The notes beneath the pieces are model-generated. The model saw only the letters and a program-made list of their open reading frames with translations, was not told the DNA's origin and ran no database searches. The position numbers were made by a program, and so were the translations under genes. DNA of 47,846 nucleotides from a bacterium (GTDB lineage Bacteria > Joyebacterota > Joyebacteria > Joyebacterales > Joyebacteraceae): the NCBI GenBank assembly GCA_025774935.1, contig JALGZK010000018.1, positions 1 through 47,846 of the forward strand, in the 5' to 3' direction. Positions 1 through 16,676 of the stretch are shown piece by piece (the first letter of the stretch is position 1; every line of letters begins with the position of its first letter).

Positions 1-115
1 ACCGCGAATCAGCTGCGGGCGTGAAGGGTGGCGCGGCACGTGCCGGCCGCCGAAGGCGGCCCCCCTTGCAGGTGACGTGACACCCAAGCCCGTCAGCTGC
101 ATTCGCTAGTTAGGC
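1..115 (-). other. attC recombination site of cassette 5 (left end cut by the window edge)
   Basis: The R'' core is GCCTAAC on the minus strand at 115-109, just downstream of the cassette 5 gene. The body differs from the sites at 1852-1975 and 2637-2760 at only two or three positions. The far end is truncated: only the last bases of the R' core (AC at 1-2) are inside the window. The arms can pair as a long hairpin, and the unpaired G between CGAAT and CAGCTG in the minus-strand arm is typical of the extrahelical bases that orient attC recombination. Confidence 0.88.
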
Positions 116-148
116 GGCAGCCCGTGCTCGCCGGCTGAGCCTCCAGAC

Positions 149-877
149 TCAGCGGCGGAACAGCCCCTTGATAGCACCCCACTGCTGAGCCTTCGCAGGG
201 GTACTGTCCCTCCATGTTATCAGAAGGTCTGCTCCCCCCGCGTTCCAGCCGGGGAGCGACCCGAGTCCGACTAGCCCATCAGAGTAGTCCACGGTGAGCC
301 CAACGCAGAAGAGACTCCGTCCACTCACAAGGTCCTGCACATCAGAGACGGCGCTCCCGCCCAGAACATAGCGACGGGTACCGTACTCTGTTCCCATGTC
401 GACGTCGGTGTAGGCCGGGCACGACGTCAAGCAGCTCCAGGCGCTCCAGCACTCCGGAGGCGGCAGATACGCACCCTCCATCTTCCGGTACACGAGTCTC
501 ACCCCCGGCTCGTTCCCGTCACTGGGCCCGAAGTAGTCCTCGATCTCCACCCGGATGACCTCGGCTCCTTCGGGCAGACCGGCAAGGTCCCAGACTACCC
601 ATGCACCGAACAGCGTCCCGGAGTGAGTGCGACCGAACTGGACGAAGTCTGGCATGTCCAGCAGGGTACACATCGATGAGTCCTCCACGAACACCCCGGC
701 AATACCATAGGGCTCCTGCACGTTGGTGATGCGTGTGACGGTGGACTCGCGCGATGCCGGAACGAGAGGAAGGGACTCAACGGATTGGGCTGGATATGCC
801 GGTGTCCGGGCTGAACCATAGACCGGCATTGCCAGCGTGACGCACAGCACACCCGAGATGATCGCTATCACTCTCAT
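149..877 (-). CDS. Cassette 5: secreted protein of unknown function with WGAIK-type C-terminal tail
   Basis: I do not recognise the family of this 242-residue protein. The first 20 or so residues form a typical Sec signal peptide (MRVIAIISGVLCVTLAMPVYG), so the product is exported. The mature part is beta-rich, with several Trp and Gly residues and a few cysteines (for example near ECWSAWSC). It ends in QWGAIKGLFRR, closely matching the tail of the cassette 1 protein (SWGALKAGFR) although the rest is unrelated, which suggests a sorting or anchoring tag. The start is an ATG with GGAG upstream. The gene lies between attC sites 931-1112 and 1-115 and fills the cassette almost completely. Function unknown; a surface or extracellular role is inferred. 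Confidence 0.85.
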   Translation of the reverse strand: MRVIAIISGVLCVTLAMPVYGSARTPAYPAQSVESLPLVPASRESTVTRITNVQEPYGIAGVFVEDSSMCTLLDMPDFVQFGRTHSGTLFGAWVVWDLAGLPEGAEVIRVEIEDYFGPSDGNEPGVRLVYRKMEGAYLPPPECWSAWSCLTSCPAYTDVDMGTEYGTRRYVLGGSAVSDVQDLVSGRSLFCVGLTVDYSDGLVGLGSLPGWNAGGADLLITWRDSTPAKAQQWGAIKGLFRR

Positions 878-930
878 ACTCCGACCTCATCCCCCGGCCG
901 AACGCGGCACTCCCCTCTCAAGGGCTGCCC

Positions 931-1112
931 GCCTAACGAATCGCGAATCAGCTGCACCAGGCGCTGGCGCGGCAAGTGCCGGCCGAGCGCAGCGAGGCCC
1001 CCCTTGCAGTTGACGTGACAGTGCCGAAGCGACGCCGCCCGTGGCAGTGCAACGGCGCTGGGACGGGCGCCCGGGCGGCGGAGCGGGTGTCAGCTGCATT
1101 CGCTAGTTAGAC
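931..1112 (-). other. attC recombination site of cassette 4 (long variant, 182 bp)
   Basis: The ends are GTCTAAC (minus strand, 1112-1106) and GTTAGGC (937-931). The outer arms are the same as in the other sites: TAACGAATCGCGAATCAGCTGC on the plus strand at the left and GTCAGCTGCATTCGCTAG at the right. The middle is longer and different, very GC-rich and able to form extra hairpins. The site follows the cassette 4 gene, which ends at 1127. Confidence 0.9.
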
Positions 1113-1126
1113 GGCACCGCACGTCA

Positions 1127-1810
1127 CTAGCGCTCCCCAACGAGCTCCAGCAGATAGGCGCCGTTCGCTTCGTACCGCGCCTGGAGTTCATTGAAGCGCG
1201 TGTCGTACTCCGTGAGCCTCGCCAAGCCAGTCTCGGCTTCACCGTCCTCAATCTCGATGATTCCACGGTGAATCTGCTCTAGGCAGTGCACCTGCGACGC
1301 CTTCAAGGTGTAATTCTCCATCATGAACCCAATCACGTCGTTGTCGCCGAACGACGCAAACGGCCCCGTGCACTCGCGCTGCCGCTCGACGGCCTCGCGG
1401 CAGGCTTCAAGAGCTAGAGGGGCACGGCCCCGGTACTCCGTCGCGGTGATGTCCTCCATGTTCCAGGCGTGCATCAGCATGTACGCAGCGACGACCTCCT
1501 CCTGCAAAGCTCGATGTGCGCGCCGGGCCTGCTCCACTTGAAGCTCGGACGGCCAGTCGGCCGGATCATAGTCCTCTGACGCGACAGACATACCAGACTC
1601 ACTGACGACACCGAGTGTACTCAGGCGCGACATCAAGGCTCCGAGTGAACCCAAGGCCGCGATTACTGCGGCGACGATCAGACCTCGTCGGACGAAGACA
1701 GCTACGGGGCGCTTCGTGATTTTGGCGAGAAGCCAGCCCACGAAGGCGCAGACTGCTCCCCACACCACCAGTGAGGAGACGAAACCCAGAATGACCCCGT
1801 AGGTGAACAT
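1127..1810 (-). CDS. Cassette 4: membrane protein of unknown function with helical external domain
   Basis: This 227-residue protein is of no family I can name. Residues about 5-28 and 43-62 are two hydrophobic membrane-spanning segments with basic residues between them (KITKRPVAVFVRR). The remaining roughly 160 residues are polar and predicted helical, rich in Glu, Ala and Arg, with Cys near EACREAVERQRECTGP and VHCLEQ. The N-terminal hairpin probably holds this helical domain at the membrane. The ATG start has AAGGGAG six bases upstream. The gene is bounded by attC sites 1852-1975 and 931-1112, so it is a complete one-gene cassette. Nothing in the sequence shows its function. Confidence 0.82.
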   Translation of the reverse strand: MFTYGVILGFVSSLVVWGAVCAFVGWLLAKITKRPVAVFVRRGLIVAAVIAALGSLGALMSRLSTLGVVSESGMSVASEDYDPADWPSELQVEQARRAHRALQEEVVAAYMLMHAWNMEDITATEYRGRAPLALEACREAVERQRECTGPFASFGDNDVIGFMMENYTLKASQVHCLEQIHRGIIEIEDGEAETGLARLTEYDTRFNELQARYEANGAYLLELVGER

Positions 1811-1851
1811 GGAAACTCCCTTCTCTCGTCAGGTCGTCGCCGTGCGGTGCC

Positions 1852-1975
1852 GGCTAACGAATCGCGAATCAGCTGCGGGCGTGAAGGGTGGCGCGGCACG
1901 TGCTGGCCGCCGTAGGCGGCCCCCCTTGCAGGTGACGTGACACCCAAGCACGTCAGCTGCATTCGCTAGTTAGGC
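1852..1975 (-). other. attC recombination site of cassette 3
   Basis: This 124-bp imperfect palindrome has cores GCCTAAC (minus strand, 1975-1969) and GTTAGCC (1858-1852). The second core departs from GTTRRRY at one position. Apart from that terminal core, the body differs by only a few bases from the site at 2637-2760, and by about three from the one at 1-115. It directly follows the cassette 3 gene, whose stop is at 1982. Confidence 0.92.
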
Positions 1976-1981
1976 TGCACT

Positions 1982-2605
1982 TCACTCCCCTACCACCGTG
2001 TCGTCAGTGTGCGCGCCGAACTCCTCGGATCTCACCTCGGTGGCCTGAGTGTACCGCGCCAGACGGTCGTCCCATCCAGCGGAGGCCCCGAATGCCCGGC
2101 GCGCAAACTCAACAGAGCTGACTGCCTCAGCAAGCGAGACGGGGTCTGATGAGTCGTACAGCTTCATCGGGTCTCCGATGGCCACCATGTTCGGGGGCAC
2201 GAAGGCTCCCTCGGGGACAAGCGCGCCTGCATGCACAAACGCCCCCACTGCCACAGCGGCGCCCGACTGCACACGCGCCCCCTGGAGCACGGTCGCGCCA
2301 GTGGCTATGTACGAGCACCGCTCCACCGTGCAACCTAACAGCGTGGCGTGCGGCGAAATGAAGACATGGTCGCCCACGACCACGGGATACTCAGCGTCTC
2401 CGGCTCCCGTGGCCCGCAGGACGGAGTTCGCACACACGATGCTGCACTCCCCAAGGGTAATCATCGAGGCCTCGGAGTCGAGAACTGCACCGTACATCAC
2501 CCTCGACTTAGGTCCTATCCGGATGTTCCCGACGAGTACAGCTGTCGGCGCGACGTACACTGTCTCGTGAACCGCCGGCTCGTGTCCCCTATGCTTGATG
2601 AGCAT
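1982..2605 (-). CDS. Cassette 3: left-handed beta-helix protein, gamma-carbonic-anhydrase-like, degenerate metal site
   Basis: This 207-residue protein has hexapeptide-repeat periodicity over residues 15-150 (AVLVGN, VMYGAV, AVAVGA and similar), the left-handed beta-helix fold of the gamma-carbonic anhydrase/YrdA/PaaY group. A helical C-terminal tail of about 60 residues follows. The group binds zinc through three histidines. Here the usual VLH is VLR (SVLRATG), and the usual GHxxxxHG appears as SPHATLLG, so only one ligand is visible. A working carbonic anhydrase is therefore doubtful; a scaffold or acyltransferase-like role is possible. The start has GAGG upstream (CGAGGACACAGATG). The gene fits tightly between attC sites 2637-2760 and 1852-1975. 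The fold is confident; the activity is not. Confidence 0.85.
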   Translation of the reverse strand: MLIKHRGHEPAVHETVYVAPTAVLVGNIRIGPKSRVMYGAVLDSEASMITLGECSIVCANSVLRATGAGDAEYPVVVGDHVFISPHATLLGCTVERCSYIATGATVLQGARVQSGAAVAVGAFVHAGALVPEGAFVPPNMVAIGDPMKLYDSSDPVSLAEAVSSVEFARRAFGASAGWDDRLARYTQATEVRSEEFGAHTDDTVVGE

Positions 2606-2636
2606 CTGTGTCCTCGACTACATGGTCTGAAGTGCA

Positions 2637-2760
2637 GCCTAACGAATCGCGAATCAGCTGCGGGCGTGAAGGGTGGCGCGGCACGTGCCGGCCGCCGAAG
2701 GCGGCCCCCCTTGCAGGTGGCGTGACACCCACGCCCGTCAGCTGCATTCGCTAGTTAGGC
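2637..2760 (-). other. attC recombination site of cassette 2
   Basis: This 124-bp palindrome has cores GCCTAAC (minus strand, 2760-2754) and GTTAGGC (2643-2637). It is nearly identical to the sites at 1-115 and 1852-1975. The symmetry extends past the right core into GGCGGCA, which recurs beside the attC sites near 115, 1112 and 3661. Confidence 0.93.
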
Positions 2761-2839
2761 GGCAACACAGGACCACGCTACCAGCCAGCCCGTTACTCCG
2801 TATCGCTTGACATCGACCGAAGCTCGGGACACGCGTCTC

Positions 2840-3481
2840 CTAGGTTGCGTGTCTCTCCGAGACAGCCCACAGCATGATGAGACTCTTCACGAGCTTCACG
2901 AGTCCATAGAGCACTGGACCGTACCAGATGAAGAAGAGGAACGAACCGGAGACGGTCGCGATGATAGAGATTCCGCCCCCCGCGACTATCCAGATAAGCG
3001 AGATCCAGAGCTGCCTGACAGCGTCGGCACGTGACGCCTGCCTTCCCTCGGGAGTGTCGTGCACGGCTCCCGTGTGTTCCATGTGAGTAGCGACAGTCTT
3101 GTCCATCAGCTTCTGCGCCGTCTCCTCCTCACATCCGTGCTTCGTCAGATGAGTCAGGATGTCCTTCTTGGCCTGGGACTTGTCCCACTGACCAGCGAAG
3201 TACGTGACCACGATGAACCCTAGAATGTCATCGGCTTCCGTGTCCACCGACGCAAGCTCTCCGCCGCAGAACTCGCACGCCGTGAAGTACGTCGGGACAG
3301 AGCGCCCACACTGCGGGCACTGCAGCGAGCTGTCGAGTCTTCGCATCGCGGCACGCGCGAGGGACTCCCAAACCGCCTCGCCCGGATAGGTTTCCTGCCA
3401 GGACTCCGAAGAGAAGTCCCATCCGCACTCGCACAGATCGCCGCTAGAGGGTGTGGGCGATCCGCAGCGTGGACATGTCAT
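2840..3481 (-). CDS. Cassette 2: double zinc-ribbon membrane protein of unknown function
   Basis: This 213-residue protein starts at the ATG at 3481, which has GGGGGGAAG just upstream and begins directly with a metal-binding motif. A TTG ten codons earlier is less likely. Residues 1-20 hold one zinc ribbon (CPRCGS...CECGW) and residues about 43-65 a second (CPQCGR...CEFCG). A polar helical region follows (residues 70-150). Residues about 160-200 contain two hydrophobic segments that should span the membrane. Zinc ribbon plus C-terminal membrane hairpin is common in small bacterial membrane proteins of unknown role. It forms one cassette between attC sites 3558-3661 and 2637-2760. Function not known. 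Confidence 0.82.
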   Translation of the reverse strand: MTCPRCGSPTPSSGDLCECGWDFSSESWQETYPGEAVWESLARAAMRRLDSSLQCPQCGRSVPTYFTACEFCGGELASVDTEADDILGFIVVTYFAGQWDKSQAKKDILTHLTKHGCEEETAQKLMDKTVATHMEHTGAVHDTPEGRQASRADAVRQLWISLIWIVAGGGISIIATVSGSFLFFIWYGPVLYGLVKLVKSLIMLWAVSERHAT

Positions 3482-3557
3482 CGCTTCCCCCCCGTGCGAG
3501 GATACGAGCAAGCTCCAAGAACACCACTCTGCCGTCGTGACCAGACGGCGTGTTGCC

Positions 3558-3661
3558 GCCTAACGAATCGCGAATCAGCTGCGAGCGTCACGGCTGGCGC
3601 GACAGGTGCGCAAGCAGCTGGCGTGACAGCCAAGCTCGTCAGCTGCATTCGCTAGTTAGAC
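3558..3661 (-). other. attC recombination site of cassette 1 (short variant, 104 bp)
   Basis: Cores are GTCTAAC (minus strand, 3661-3655) and GTTAGGC (3564-3558). The outer arms match the other sites, but the central stem is shorter and different (GCGAGCGTCACGGCTGG on the plus strand). This is the site nearest the integrase and closes the first cassette. Plus-strand GCCGCC before the left core and GGCGGC after the right core extend the pairing. Confidence 0.92.
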
Positions 3662-3673
3662 AGGCGGCAAGGC

Positions 3674-5077
3674 CTATCTGAATCCTGCTTTCAGAGCACC
3701 CCATGACGAGCGCTCAACCACTACTGCGCAGCTGCCGCATCCCTCACCATGCGCACCGACCAGCTCACTCCACTCGTTGTTCTCGGGCAGACACGGTGAG
3801 TCGGCGCACAGCGTGAAGTCATCCACTGCTGCTCCGCAGAACAGGGGGTCCACAACGAGGTTGCTGGCTGACTGGCCGCAGAGACTGTCACCACCGGCGT
3901 TCTCGAACAGCACGCAATGCTCAAGGTCGAGGTCGAGGGCGGAGCAGTCAATGGCTGAGCCCTCGGTCGTGTAGGCAATGATGCAGTTGTGGACGGCGAG
4001 GTCCCAACGTCCTCCCTCGATGACGGCACCGGCTGTGGACGCGTTGTGTGCGAGGGTGCACTCCGCGATCGTGATGTACGAATTGTCCCCCAGGGCCACA
4101 GCCCCCCCGTGATCGGCCGAATTGCGTGCGAAATCACTGCGGAGTATGATCAGGGTCTCCCCACCCGCATCGATCGCCCCGCCAGTCGATGCTTCGTTCT
4201 CTTCGAACAGACAGTCGACGATGCCCACTGAAAGAGGACCGATCCCGACCTGAATGCCCACGGCTCCGCCAAACCGATCCGCGACGTTCCCCAGAAACTC
4301 CGTGCCGGTTATGTTGATGCCATCCCGAGTGGACAAGCGAGGAGGCGCACTGCCCTGTCCTGTCGGACTGGTCACGTGGCTATCCACGTAAACGGCTCCA
4401 CCGTCGCTTCCCGACGAGTTGCCTACGAAAACACAATCTCCAATGCCAGCGCCGTACCCTGGGGAGTCGGCGTAGACGGCTCCACCCTCGTGCGTGCACG
4501 TGTTACTCGTGAACGAGCAGCGCTTGATTCGAGGAGAGGCCCAGTAATCTGCACCGATGGCCCCGCCTTGGACGGCGTCGTTGCCTTCGAAGACGCAAGC
4601 ACGTATGACCGGAGAGCCCCAGGTCTCACAGCGCACTGCCCCCCCACGACCACCGTGGTTGTCGTTGAAGACACAGTCCGCGATGAGAGGATCGGAGTCG
4701 TCGACGTAGATCGCGCCTCCGCCGTAGCTGTGGAACCCCCCGCGAAAGGTGAACCCGCTGATTGCGGTCGTGGTGTCATGCCCAGCCGCTACGTAGATGG
4801 CACGCCCCGCCCCTTCGCAGTCTATGACAGTAGCGGAGGAGCCCTCCTCGGACATGAGTCGGACCGTCGCGAAGCCGATCACGACTCCCCTGTTGCCGGG
4901 GCCTGTGTATGTACCTGTAGCCACGAGTACCGTGTCCCCGACGTCGGCAGCATCGACTCCGGCCTGAATGGTCGGTTGATCTGCTGGTACGTGAATGACT
5001 CCGGCGACGGCGACCGCTGAGACCGCAAGCACGCTTAGAACCGCGATCCATCCTAGATATCCCCGTGGTGAACCCAT
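3674..5077 (-). CDS. Cassette 1: secreted right-handed parallel beta-helix protein with WGALK-type C-terminal tail
   Basis: This 467-residue protein has a signal peptide (residues 8-28, hydrophobic). The next stretch (IHVPADQPTIQAGVDAA, then GDTVLVATGTYTG) is the classic opening of the polymorphic beta-helix proteins common in FCB-type candidate phyla. From about residue 85 to 410, repeats of the form GGA(I/V)...C.F.GN mark the coils of a right-handed beta-helix with Cys ladders. The C-terminal part holds a CADSPCLPENN and GAHGEGCGSC segment and ends in SWGALKAGFR, a likely sorting tail shared with the cassette 5 protein. The start has GGAG seven bases upstream and lies 28 bases inside the attI junction. 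This is the first, probably most recently inserted and best expressed cassette. Exported or surface role inferred. Confidence 0.88.
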   Translation of the reverse strand: MGSPRGYLGWIAVLSVLAVSAVAVAGVIHVPADQPTIQAGVDAADVGDTVLVATGTYTGPGNRGVVIGFATVRLMSEEGSSATVIDCEGAGRAIYVAAGHDTTTAISGFTFRGGFHSYGGGAIYVDDSDPLIADCVFNDNHGGRGGAVRCETWGSPVIRACVFEGNDAVQGGAIGADYWASPRIKRCSFTSNTCTHEGGAVYADSPGYGAGIGDCVFVGNSSGSDGGAVYVDSHVTSPTGQGSAPPRLSTRDGINITGTEFLGNVADRFGGAVGIQVGIGPLSVGIVDCLFEENEASTGGAIDAGGETLIILRSDFARNSADHGGAVALGDNSYITIAECTLAHNASTAGAVIEGGRWDLAVHNCIIAYTTEGSAIDCSALDLDLEHCVLFENAGGDSLCGQSASNLVVDPLFCGAAVDDFTLCADSPCLPENNEWSELVGAHGEGCGSCAVVVERSSWGALKAGFR

Positions 5078-5301: not shown

Positions 5302-6360
5302 CTAGAGAGTATCCACTGGGCTCTGCACTCCCAGCTCCGAGCCGGACACCACGTGGGTGTAGATCATCGTCGTCCGGATGTCCTTGTGTCCCATCAGCTT
5401 CTGTATCGTCCGGATGTGGTACCCGGCTTCCAGCAGGTGCGTCGCGAACGAGTGCCTGAACGTGTGACACGTCACCCGCTTCGGCAGGCCTGACTTCCCC
5501 GCGGCCTCCTTCACCGCCCGCTGCAGCACCGACTCGTGTACGTGCTGCCGCCGCGGTTCGCCCGTCTCCCGGTCCTTGCACAACCGCGACGACGGGAAAA
5601 CGTACTGCCAGCCCCACTCAGCACCGCCGTTCGGGAACTTCCTCGCGAGCGCGTCCGGAAGTGTCGCTTTGACGCGTCCGATCTTCCGGTCGTGTTCGAA
5701 GACCACGCGCACCCGACGGATCTGCTCCTCGAGCGCAGGGCGCAGCGCCTTCGGCAGAAGCGTCGCGCGGTCCTTGTCGCCCTTCCCGGCCCGGACTATG
5801 ATGCGTCCCCGGCTTAGGTCGATGTCCTTCACGCGAAGCCCTGTGCACTCGCGCAACCTCAGACCGGAACCGTACAGGAGAGACGCCATCAGCCGCTTCG
5901 AGCCCTCCATGAGTCCGAGAACGTGGCGGACCTCCTCCTTCGACAGCACCTGTGGCAGCCGACTCCGTTTCTTCGCGGGCACGATCTCGGTGAACGATCC
6001 GAGGTTGAGCTTCAGCACCTTCCGATAGAGGAAGGCGAGAGCGCTCCGCGCCTGCAGCTGCGTCTTCGCGCCGACACTCCCGCGAACCGCGAGATCGGTC
6101 AGGAACTCCTCGACGTGCCTCGCCCTGAGCGTTCCCGGATGCTGATGCCCGTGGAACTCGACGTACCGCCGGATCCACGCGGCGTACGCCTCCTCGGTCC
6201 GGGGGCTGTAGTGCTCGCCTTTGAATACCCTGTGCGCAGACTCGAGGAGTCTCTCGAGGGTGGGGCGGTCAAGCTGGCGACGGGCGGAGCCCGCGGGGGC
6301 GTGTTCGCGCTCGCCGCACGGGCCTGGCCGACCGCCGCGACGGTTCCTGCGCGTGGGCAT
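5302..6360 (-). CDS. intI: Integron integrase IntI (tyrosine recombinase)
   Basis: This 352-residue site-specific recombinase exchanges cassettes between attI and attC sites. The N-terminal SAM-like DNA-binding domain (about 30-120) precedes the catalytic domain. Visible catalytic residues are Arg in GSGLRLRE, Lys in GKGDKDR, His/Arg in HTFRH (about 299-302), His in MGHKD (about 325) and the Tyr nucleophile in TMIYTH (about 334). The IntI-only insertion is clear at about 237-256 (ALARKFP...EWGWQYVFPS) and separates it from XerC/D. The tail GVQSPVDTL also matches IntI proteins. The start chosen is the ATG at 6360 with GGGGGAG upstream; an ATG at 6414 lies at the predicted transcription start and is unlikely. 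The gene is intact and points toward the cassettes, the reverse of class 1-3 integrons and like a few chromosomal ones such as that of Treponema denticola. Confidence 0.97.
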   Translation of the reverse strand: MPTRRNRRGGRPGPCGEREHAPAGSARRQLDRPTLERLLESAHRVFKGEHYSPRTEEAYAAWIRRYVEFHGHQHPGTLRARHVEEFLTDLAVRGSVGAKTQLQARSALAFLYRKVLKLNLGSFTEIVPAKKRSRLPQVLSKEEVRHVLGLMEGSKRLMASLLYGSGLRLRECTGLRVKDIDLSRGRIIVRAGKGDKDRATLLPKALRPALEEQIRRVRVVFEHDRKIGRVKATLPDALARKFPNGGAEWGWQYVFPSSRLCKDRETGEPRRQHVHESVLQRAVKEAAGKSGLPKRVTCHTFRHSFATHLLEAGYHIRTIQKLMGHKDIRTTMIYTHVVSGSELGVQSPVDTL

Positions 6361-6401
6361 ATACTCCCCCTCAATCGGGGTCGACAGAGGGGTGTCCGTC
6401 A

Positions 6402-6420
6402 AGTTGATTCGCATTCAACT
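6402..6420. promoter_or_regulatory. Dyad overlapping the intI -10 box and transcription start (possible operator)
   Basis: AGTTGA-N7-TCAACT is a perfect 6-bp inverted repeat. It overlaps the -10 box and the expected transcription start of intI, where a repressor would block the promoter. Many intI genes are repressed by LexA, whose box varies between phyla. This dyad could be such a box or that of another regulator; nothing in the window identifies it. Confidence 0.4.
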
Positions 6421-15140: not shown

Positions 15141-16676
15141 CTACCCCTGCTTCTCGGACGCGAGCTCCTTGCCGCTCCTCACGCCCACCACCCGGAACTC
15201 CTCGCGACCCAGATCGCGGTCGTCGGTGACCTCGATCCCACGCCTCGTATCCTTCTCGAGCATGCGGAGCCAGCCCTCTTCCTCGCCGACGACGTGGACG
15301 GCCATCTCCGGCGACACCACGAGCTTGAGCTTCTTCTCCCTGCGCGAGGAAGCGACGCGTCGCACTGCCCGCTCGATGAGGAACATGATCGAGTCGAGCG
15401 ACAGCACCTTGCCGGTTCCCTCGCAGCAGGAGCACTCGTCGGTGTACTGGTGGAGCAAGCTCGGGCGAACGCGCTGACGGGTCATCTGTACGAGCCCGAG
15501 CTCGGTGATCGGGAGGACCTTGCTCCTCGCGCGGTCCCGCGCCAGGACCTTCTTGAGCTCCTGTACGACCTTCTGCCGATTCCCCTCGGTCGCCATGTCG
15601 ATGAAGTCGATGACGATGATCCCGCCGATGTCGCGCAGCCTGAGCTGCCGGCCGATCTCGCGCGCGGCTCCGAGGTTCGTCTTGAGGATCGTCTCCTCCT
15701 GGTCCTTCTTTCCGGTGTAGCGGCCCGTGTTCACGTCGACCGCGGTCAGCGCCTCGGTGTGGTCGATGACGACGTAGCCGCCCTTCTTGAAGTAGACCTT
15801 TCGGCGGAGGCTCTTCTCGATCTCGCCCTCGATCTCGTACGCGTCGAAGACGGGAGTCGAGTCCTTGTAGTACTCGACGCGCCCTCGTAGATCGGGAGCG
15901 ACCATCCTGAGGTAGCCGCCGATCTCGCGGTATCCCCTGCGCGAGTCGACCACGAGACGGTCGACGTCCGACGTGAAGACGTCGCGCACGAGCCCGGCCG
16001 TCAGCCCCATCTCGCTGTGCACGAGCGCGGGCGCGCGCTTCTTCTCGGCGGTCCCCGTCGTCTTCTTCCAGGACTTCACGAGGTACTTGAGGTCGCGCTT
16101 GATCTGGCGCTTGCTCACTCCCTGCGCGGCGGTCCGCACGATGAGCCCGCCCCAGGGCGGGCGGATCTCCCTCGAGATCTCCTTCAGGCGCTCGCGCTCC
16201 TTCGGGTCCTCGATCTTCCTGGAGACGCCGACGGCGCCGGAGAACGGAACGAGGACGAGGAACCGGCCGGGCGTAGAGATCTGGGAGGTGACGCGGGGCC
16301 CCTTCGTTCCAATCGGCTCCTTCGTGACCTGGACGAGGACGTCCTGGCCCTTCTCGAGCAGGTCCTGGATGGGCGCGTTCGGCGGGACCACCCGCTGGCC
16401 GTCCTCGACCTCCAGCTGGTCGACGCTCCCGTTCGTCGTCTCGAGCACGAGGTCCCGCATGTCCGAAACGTGCAGGAATGCGCTCTTCTCCGACCCGATA
16501 TCGACGAAGGCCGCCTGCATCCCCGGCAGCACGGCCCCCACGACGCCCTTGTAGATGTCCCCGACCATCCTGCCGCCCTCGCCGCGCTCAACCAGGAGCT
16601 CGACGAGCTGGTGGTCTTCGAGGATGGCGATCCTCGTCTCCCCGGGGGTGTCGTTGATGACGATTTCCTTGTACAC
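15141..16676 (-). CDS. rng: Ribonuclease G/E family endoribonuclease
   Basis: This 511-residue endoribonuclease cuts single-stranded AU-rich RNA, maturing 16S rRNA and turning over mRNA. An S1 RNA-binding domain sits at about 37-120 (GDIYKGVVGAVLPGMQAAFVDI, then SAFLHVSDM), followed by the 5' sensor and RNase H-like regions. The DNase I-like catalytic part holds the conserved Asp in GGIIVIDFIDM, and the zinc-link motif is CSCCEGTGKV near residue 418. Length matches RNase G rather than the longer RNase E, because the C-terminal scaffold is absent. The start is GTG with AGGAGG immediately upstream. It has its own promoter and lies after the TIGR03960 gene, a neighbourhood seen in many bacteria. 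Confidence 0.95.
   Translation of the reverse strand: MYKEIVINDTPGETRIAILEDHQLVELLVERGEGGRMVGDIYKGVVGAVLPGMQAAFVDIGSEKSAFLHVSDMRDLVLETTNGSVDQLEVEDGQRVVPPNAPIQDLLEKGQDVLVQVTKEPIGTKGPRVTSQISTPGRFLVLVPFSGAVGVSRKIEDPKERERLKEISREIRPPWGGLIVRTAAQGVSKRQIKRDLKYLVKSWKKTTGTAEKKRAPALVHSEMGLTAGLVRDVFTSDVDRLVVDSRRGYREIGGYLRMVAPDLRGRVEYYKDSTPVFDAYEIEGEIEKSLRRKVYFKKGGYVVIDHTEALTAVDVNTGRYTGKKDQEETILKTNLGAAREIGRQLRLRDIGGIIVIDFIDMATEGNRQKVVQELKKVLARDRARSKVLPITELGLVQMTRQRVRPSLLHQYTDECSCCEGTGKVLSLDSIMFLIERAVRRVASSRREKKLKLVVSPEMAVHVVGEEEGWLRMLEKDTRRGIEVTDDRDLGREEFRVVGVRSGKELASEKQG

Follow-up and report, generated by a model that had tools for sequence, protein, structure and literature searches.

A short C-terminal tail shared by two integron-borne secreted proteins recurs throughout an uncultured bacterial genome and is a candidate sorting tag of a type IX-like pathway

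The 47,846-nucleotide stretch of DNA analysed here (hereafter the window; contig JALGZK010000018.1 of assembly GCA_025774935.1, Joyebacterota) begins with an integron in which the first and the fifth gene cassette each encode a protein with a predicted signal peptide, and the common ending of these two proteins is WGA[IL]KxxFR(R). We found that this tail closes dozens of other proteins of the same genome, nearly all of them predicted to be exported, and that it recurs in several phylum-level groups. It is therefore very probable that the tail is an undescribed, short and modular C-terminal tag that directs export or sorting, and its co-occurrence with SprA, together with the swapping of passengers between the tag and type A sorting domains, inclines us to think that a type IX-like translocon reads it. 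From C-terminal sorting tags one can tell which proteins an uncultured bacterium delivers to its surface, and this one marks dozens of proteins per genome in groups where the exported proteome is mostly unannotated.

Results

The cassette 1 protein terminates with ERSSWGALKAGFR and the cassette 5 protein with KAQQWGAIKGLFRR, both immediately before the stop codon, while Sec-type signal peptides stand at the two N-termini (MGSPRGYLGWIAVLSVLAVSAVAVAG; MRVIAIISGVLCVTLAMPVYGSA). In a direct comparison the tail alone aligns (6/11 identities, E = 0.22), so that the two proteins are otherwise unrelated, exactly as a preliminary description of this DNA had it: two signal-peptide proteins, the same tail and no further similarity. 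The motif proposed there, W-G-x-(I/L)-K-x(2)-(F/Y)-R, is real but forms only the central part of a longer signature, in most cases opening with [ST]PVE, and the last arginine of the cassette 5 ending that it quoted, QWGAIKGLFRR, is indeed seen but is an extra residue beyond the motif.

A back-translated DNA pattern encoding W-G-x-[hydrophobic]-K-x-x-[FY]-R with a stop codon directly after it gave 78 matches in the 3.24-Mb genome against 0 for the reversed control, which excludes chance at the genome level. With a slightly relaxed protein pattern, 77 distinct open reading frames (ORFs) carrying the tail were obtained, a lower bound since near variants such as WSGIKGLYR, WGSIKALYQ and WGKIKAFFGF are also present. 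Their consensus reads [ST]-P-V-E-x-[AST]-[ST]-W-G-x-I-K-[AGS]-[LM]-[YF]-R-COOH; W, G and K were imposed by the search, and the unforced or partly forced positions are I (63/77), Y (65/77), R (76/77), E at -4 (55), V at -5 (54) and P at -6 (53). The tail ends exactly at the R/K position in 71 of the 77 cases, and nothing follows the motif in 60 of its 66 occurrences within called genes. The choice among synonymous codons is free, with six in use for R, four for G and two for either K or Y, so the constraint bears on the peptide and not on the DNA or on attC. The 77 tails are spread over 42 passenger clusters between which no relation could be detected, and none of them has a hydrophobic helix, taken as a 15-residue stretch above 1.6 on the Kyte-Doolittle scale within the last 45 residues. 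The tail is undescribed in Pfam and NCBIfam, and a literature search, which reached few subscription papers, found no published account of it. In one predicted lipoprotein (L081 / L008, G000:C27:11615), two domain copies lie in tandem, with the tag at the terminus and a decayed internal copy of it, SWGGLKHIFLHG, after the first domain; it looks as if domain and tag had been duplicated together.

Export of the tagged proteins is strongly suggested by their N-termini. Among tagged genes encoding 100 amino acids or more, 55 of 59 (93%) were predicted to have a signal peptide and no other membrane helix, compared with 98 of 365 untagged genes (27%), an odds ratio of 37 (p = 3.5e-23). Signal peptides were called by a home-made rule, not by SignalP, and one alternative-start rule was applied to tagged and untagged sets alike, start codons of atypical genes being otherwise called too far in; the comparison genes come from stretches around the pattern matches (408 genes, and a wider set of 424 for this test). 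A few of the tagged proteins are predicted lipoproteins. The tagged proteins have a median size of 274 amino acids and a maximum of 485, against a median of 548 and up to 1333 for proteins of the same genome that carry a type A sorting domain. Such a size gap between tagged proteins with a signal peptide (at most 485 amino acids) and type A cargo (up to 1333) may mean that the tag and the type A signal split the cargo by size.

The tail reaches well beyond one genome. In the phylum-level group of the window it was found in 20/20 genomes of one family and eight genera, with 17-78 matches each and none in the controls. Outside this group, a sample of about 270 genomes from the domain contained eight with 11-33 matches (control 0), most others having none; in one other phylum-level group 7/7 genomes were positive, and tails from several further genomes likewise terminate signal-peptide proteins. 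A scan of a named genome collection, made with a pattern that was too strict, returned only a Zixiibacteriota metagenome-assembled genome (the L009 genome), which has 86 tails of the GxIKxxFR type with the tryptophan mostly replaced by L, V or F (PASLGRVKALFR). Seven tag-poor, SprA-positive genomes contain one clear tagged gene each (L153-L159), an orthologous single-copy secreted protein of about 130 amino acids with a small beta-domain and the ending TWGSIKA[ML]FR, invariant except for one residue. This protein matches no Pfam or NCBIfam family, its beta-domain was not found upstream of type A domains in the loci examined, and it is possibly the ancestral or core tagged protein. Enrichment at the C-termini of exported proteins and presence throughout the genome and its relatives had been named in the preliminary description as the marks of a genuine tag, and both were found; its idea of a sorting, anchoring or processing tag gains support from them and from the co-occurring machinery described below.

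The proteins that accompany the tag are those of the type IX secretion system. In a panel of 79 genomes, SprA (TIGR04189) occurs in 17/17 tail-rich genomes and in 17/62 others (p = 3e-8); counted once per family, the figures are 8/8 and 15/58 (p = 9e-5). Every tail-rich genome also encodes PorV-family proteins and C25 peptidases. In the genome of the window, SprA scores 529 bits (cut-off 200) and PorU 530.7 (cut-off 420), and directly adjoining the latter is a PorV-family gene that passes the subfamily model (231 against a cut-off of 90) but, at 166.9, falls short of the 250 that the PorV equivalog model requires. Many proteins of this genome also carry type A sorting domains that end in GVYFYRL...RKMVLLR and pass TIGR04183. 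Because SprA, PorU, PorV and type A sorting domains are all present, a type IX-like pathway is predicted to exist in this organism. As a separate observation, this 3.2-Mb genome of a little-known lineage has 26 matches to peptidase C25 (gingipain-like).

The preliminary description, reasoning by analogy with PEP-CTERM or type IX signals, had proposed looking for a co-occurring processing enzyme. Exosortase fails the phylogenetic profile, but SprA, PorV and PorU fit, in agreement with the second of these analogies. Exosortase (TIGR02602 above cut-off) was found in 7/8 tested genera of the phylum-level group, the genome of the window included, but five tail-rich genomes (G044, G117, G255, G153, G290) lack it. 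The genome of the window moreover encodes an ordinary PEP-CTERM protein (TIGR02595, 23.7 against 16; L071:4057-4374) as well as its exosortase (L170:9744-10682), and three kinds of C-terminal sorting signal thus coexist in it.

A further line of evidence comes from the passengers. The beta-helix of the cassette 1 protein aligns (E = 5e-26) with a 913-residue protein of the same genome that passes the type A cut-off of TIGR04183, and ten further full-length tagged beta-helix proteins match the same 913-residue protein. To judge by these alignments, one beta-helix passenger family carries either a type A domain or the short tag, which fits two alternative addresses for one route. In both signal types the last residue is basic and a lysine stands 4-5 residues earlier; SprA and PorV bind type A domains, whose near-invariant C-terminal lysine is reported to be functionally important (PMC10994853). 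The likeness to type A of the invariant lysine four residues ahead of the terminal basic residue of the tag is suggestive only.

The integron occupies the first 6.4 kb of the window and consists of an intI integrase and five cassettes on the same strand, with attC sites of about 100-180 bp between them; the integrase together with the recurring attC sites that separate the ORFs, four of them complete and one truncated, identifies this as an integron cassette array. All of its features lie on the minus strand. The integrase gene (5302..6414; TIGR02249, 411 bits against a cut-off of 265) is followed by the cassette 1 ORF (3674..5077), whose 467-residue product comprises a signal peptide, a right-handed beta-helix passenger with PMP repeats (Pfam Beta_helix 3.7e-14, Chlam_PMP 1.6e-17) and the tag SSWGALKAGFR; the tag DNA, WGALKAGFR plus stop, occupies 3674..3703 (pattern match G000:C16:3674-3703), and an attC site follows (3556..3662). 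Cassettes 2 to 4 are untagged and encode a zinc-ribbon membrane protein (2840..3511, attC at 2635..2762), a hexapeptide-repeat protein related to gamma carbonic anhydrases (1982..2605, attC at 1850..1975) and a membrane-anchored protein of no known family (1127..1810, attC at 929..1112). The cassette 5 ORF (149..877) encodes 242 residues with a signal peptide, a passenger that matched no Pfam or NCBIfam family and the tag QQWGAIKGLFRR, whose DNA, WGAIKGLFRR plus stop, occupies 149..181 (pattern match G000:C16:149-181). The last attC (1..116) is cut by the contig start, and the array may extend further, as the start of the window coincides with the contig end (G000:C16:1). The integrase gene is co-oriented with the cassettes, its 3' end towards the array, the opposite of the classic divergent layout. 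An attC-like site on a second contig (L099:3232-3399; G000:C4, about 15231-15398) is 89% identical to the attC of the window at 932-1111; cassettes or attC fragments are therefore present elsewhere in the genome.

Both tagged cassette proteins have relatives among the tagged proteins of the same genome: the cassette 1 protein is a member of the largest tagged family, and the cassette 5 protein is 41% identical over 226 amino acids to a tagged chromosomal protein. Yet of the 68 tagged genes compared for codon fit, only one scores lower than the two cassette genes, which stand at 0.017 and 0.022 where the median is 0.30. With relatives in the same genome but a markedly foreign codon usage, both genes probably arrived from another bacterium that uses the tag. 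The suggestion that the two cassettes came from the same lineage or use the same export route thus finds support as regards the route, and is qualified as regards the lineage. Integrons, in so far as this array allows us to judge, appear to exchange ready-tagged surface proteins.

Discussion

It is tempting to draw these observations together into one mechanism. Sec would take tagged proteins, with their predicted signal peptides, across the inner membrane. Once these proteins are in the periplasm, their last 10-16 residues ([ST]PVExx[ST]WGxIKxx[YF]R with a free C-terminus, that is, a flexible linker followed by a short amphipathic peptide) would be recognised as an export address, most likely by an SprA/PorV-type outer-membrane translocon that accepts the tag in place of the type A domain of about 80 residues, and the cargo would then arrive at the cell surface or in the medium. 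Integron cassettes would bring passengers that are already tagged, and a captured gene would have its product exported correctly at once. That the tail is a sorting tag seems to us very likely, and that a type IX-like translocon reads it is somewhat better than an even bet. We hold in even balance the joint proposal that a peptide of about ten residues is the complete outer-membrane export address for an SprA/PorV-type translocon in several uncultured phyla, replaces the folded domain there and is the commoner of the two signals, with integrons passing on ready-tagged surface proteins.

Several points weigh against reading by a type IX-like translocon. In fifteen SprA-positive families of the panel the tag is very rare or missing, and SprA and the tag could both merely mark one superphylum, their co-occurrence being confounded by ancestry. 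The model of the motor protein GldM matched in none of 34 genomes, controls included, in a search that had no positive control. The comparison with type A ends was partly predetermined by the pattern used to search for type A tails, and a ten-residue tag is unlike the type A, B and C folds of about 80-100 residues. Finally, AlphaFold run without alignments on the two cassette proteins returned unusable models (pLDDT 39 and 32).

The same considerations lend some weight to the strongest alternative, in which a dedicated and so far unrecognised receptor or peptidase unrelated to type IX reads the tag, while SprA accompanies it through common ancestry. SprA-positive families without the tag exist, the tag is unrelated in sequence to type A domains, and PEP-CTERM, GlyGly-CTERM and MYXO-CTERM each have a partner of their own. 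However, no candidate for such a receptor was found, and neither the type A passenger swapping nor the all-or-none SprA profile requires an additional machine, so that we regard this explanation as unlikely, if well ahead of those that follow. One may also imagine an anchoring device, with a short amphipathic peptide at the C-terminus tethering exported proteins to a membrane or an envelope polymer. On a helix, W, I, L and Y would share one face with K and R alongside (mean hydrophobic moment 0.53 at 100 degrees), but the moment calculated for a strand is equally high (0.58 at 180 degrees), membrane docking would need neither the invariant G and K nor an exact C-terminal R, and the few tagged proteins that are predicted lipoproteins would already be anchored. 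This makes an anchor a rather poor candidate. Still less can be said for a processing signal of the exosortase: wide as the distribution of this enzyme is within the group, the five tail-rich genomes that lack it, the helix-free tails and the enzyme's own PEP-CTERM protein rule it out as partner of the tag with little room for doubt. Chance, a common ancestry of the two proteins or a DNA leftover of the cassette boundary, the last suggested by attC sites no more than a few dozen bases from either tail, is refuted by the genome-wide count, by the 42 unrelated passenger clusters, by the synonymous codons and by the position of nearly all sampled tagged genes away from attC.

Should a type IX-like translocon indeed read the tag, a folded domain of about 80 residues would not be a general requirement, a basic question on this machine would become testable and a very small export tag would be on offer. 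Tagged cassettes would, in addition, give a concrete route by which surface proteins could move between species and be functional at once.

How the tag stands among known C-terminal signals may finally be considered. Like PEP-CTERM, it is a short C-terminal homology region found on many unrelated exported proteins and was discovered by the same type of phylogenetic profile; PEP-CTERM, however, combines its motif with a membrane helix and a basic end, whereas the tag is helix-free and several tag-rich genomes lack exosortase. LPXTG/sortase, GlyGly-CTERM/rhombosortase and MYXO-CTERM/myxosortase likewise pair a terminal tag with an envelope protease and are tripartite with a membrane helix; their layout of a motif followed by such a helix was not seen in the 77 tails, and their enzymes were not searched for. 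As no membrane helix precedes the tail, the tag is not a sortase signal of the PEP-CTERM, GlyGly or MYXO type. Nor does it match any type IX sorting model: type B and C domains are about 100 residues long with several conserved motifs, and the cassette proteins gave no match to TIGR04183 (about 72 positions, with GVYxxR and final K motifs) even at E = 1, and none in Pfam. In type IX secretion one translocon takes several signal classes, with class-specific shuttle proteins (PMC12618676, PMC10202324). Whereas the type A domain (TIGR04183/PF18962) is a beta-sandwich of some 80 residues, the tag has only 9-16 residues and sits on smaller proteins; but both are C-terminal addresses of Sec-exported proteins, both occur many times per genome on unrelated passengers and together with SprA, PorV and PorU, and in the genome of the window they have a passenger family in common.

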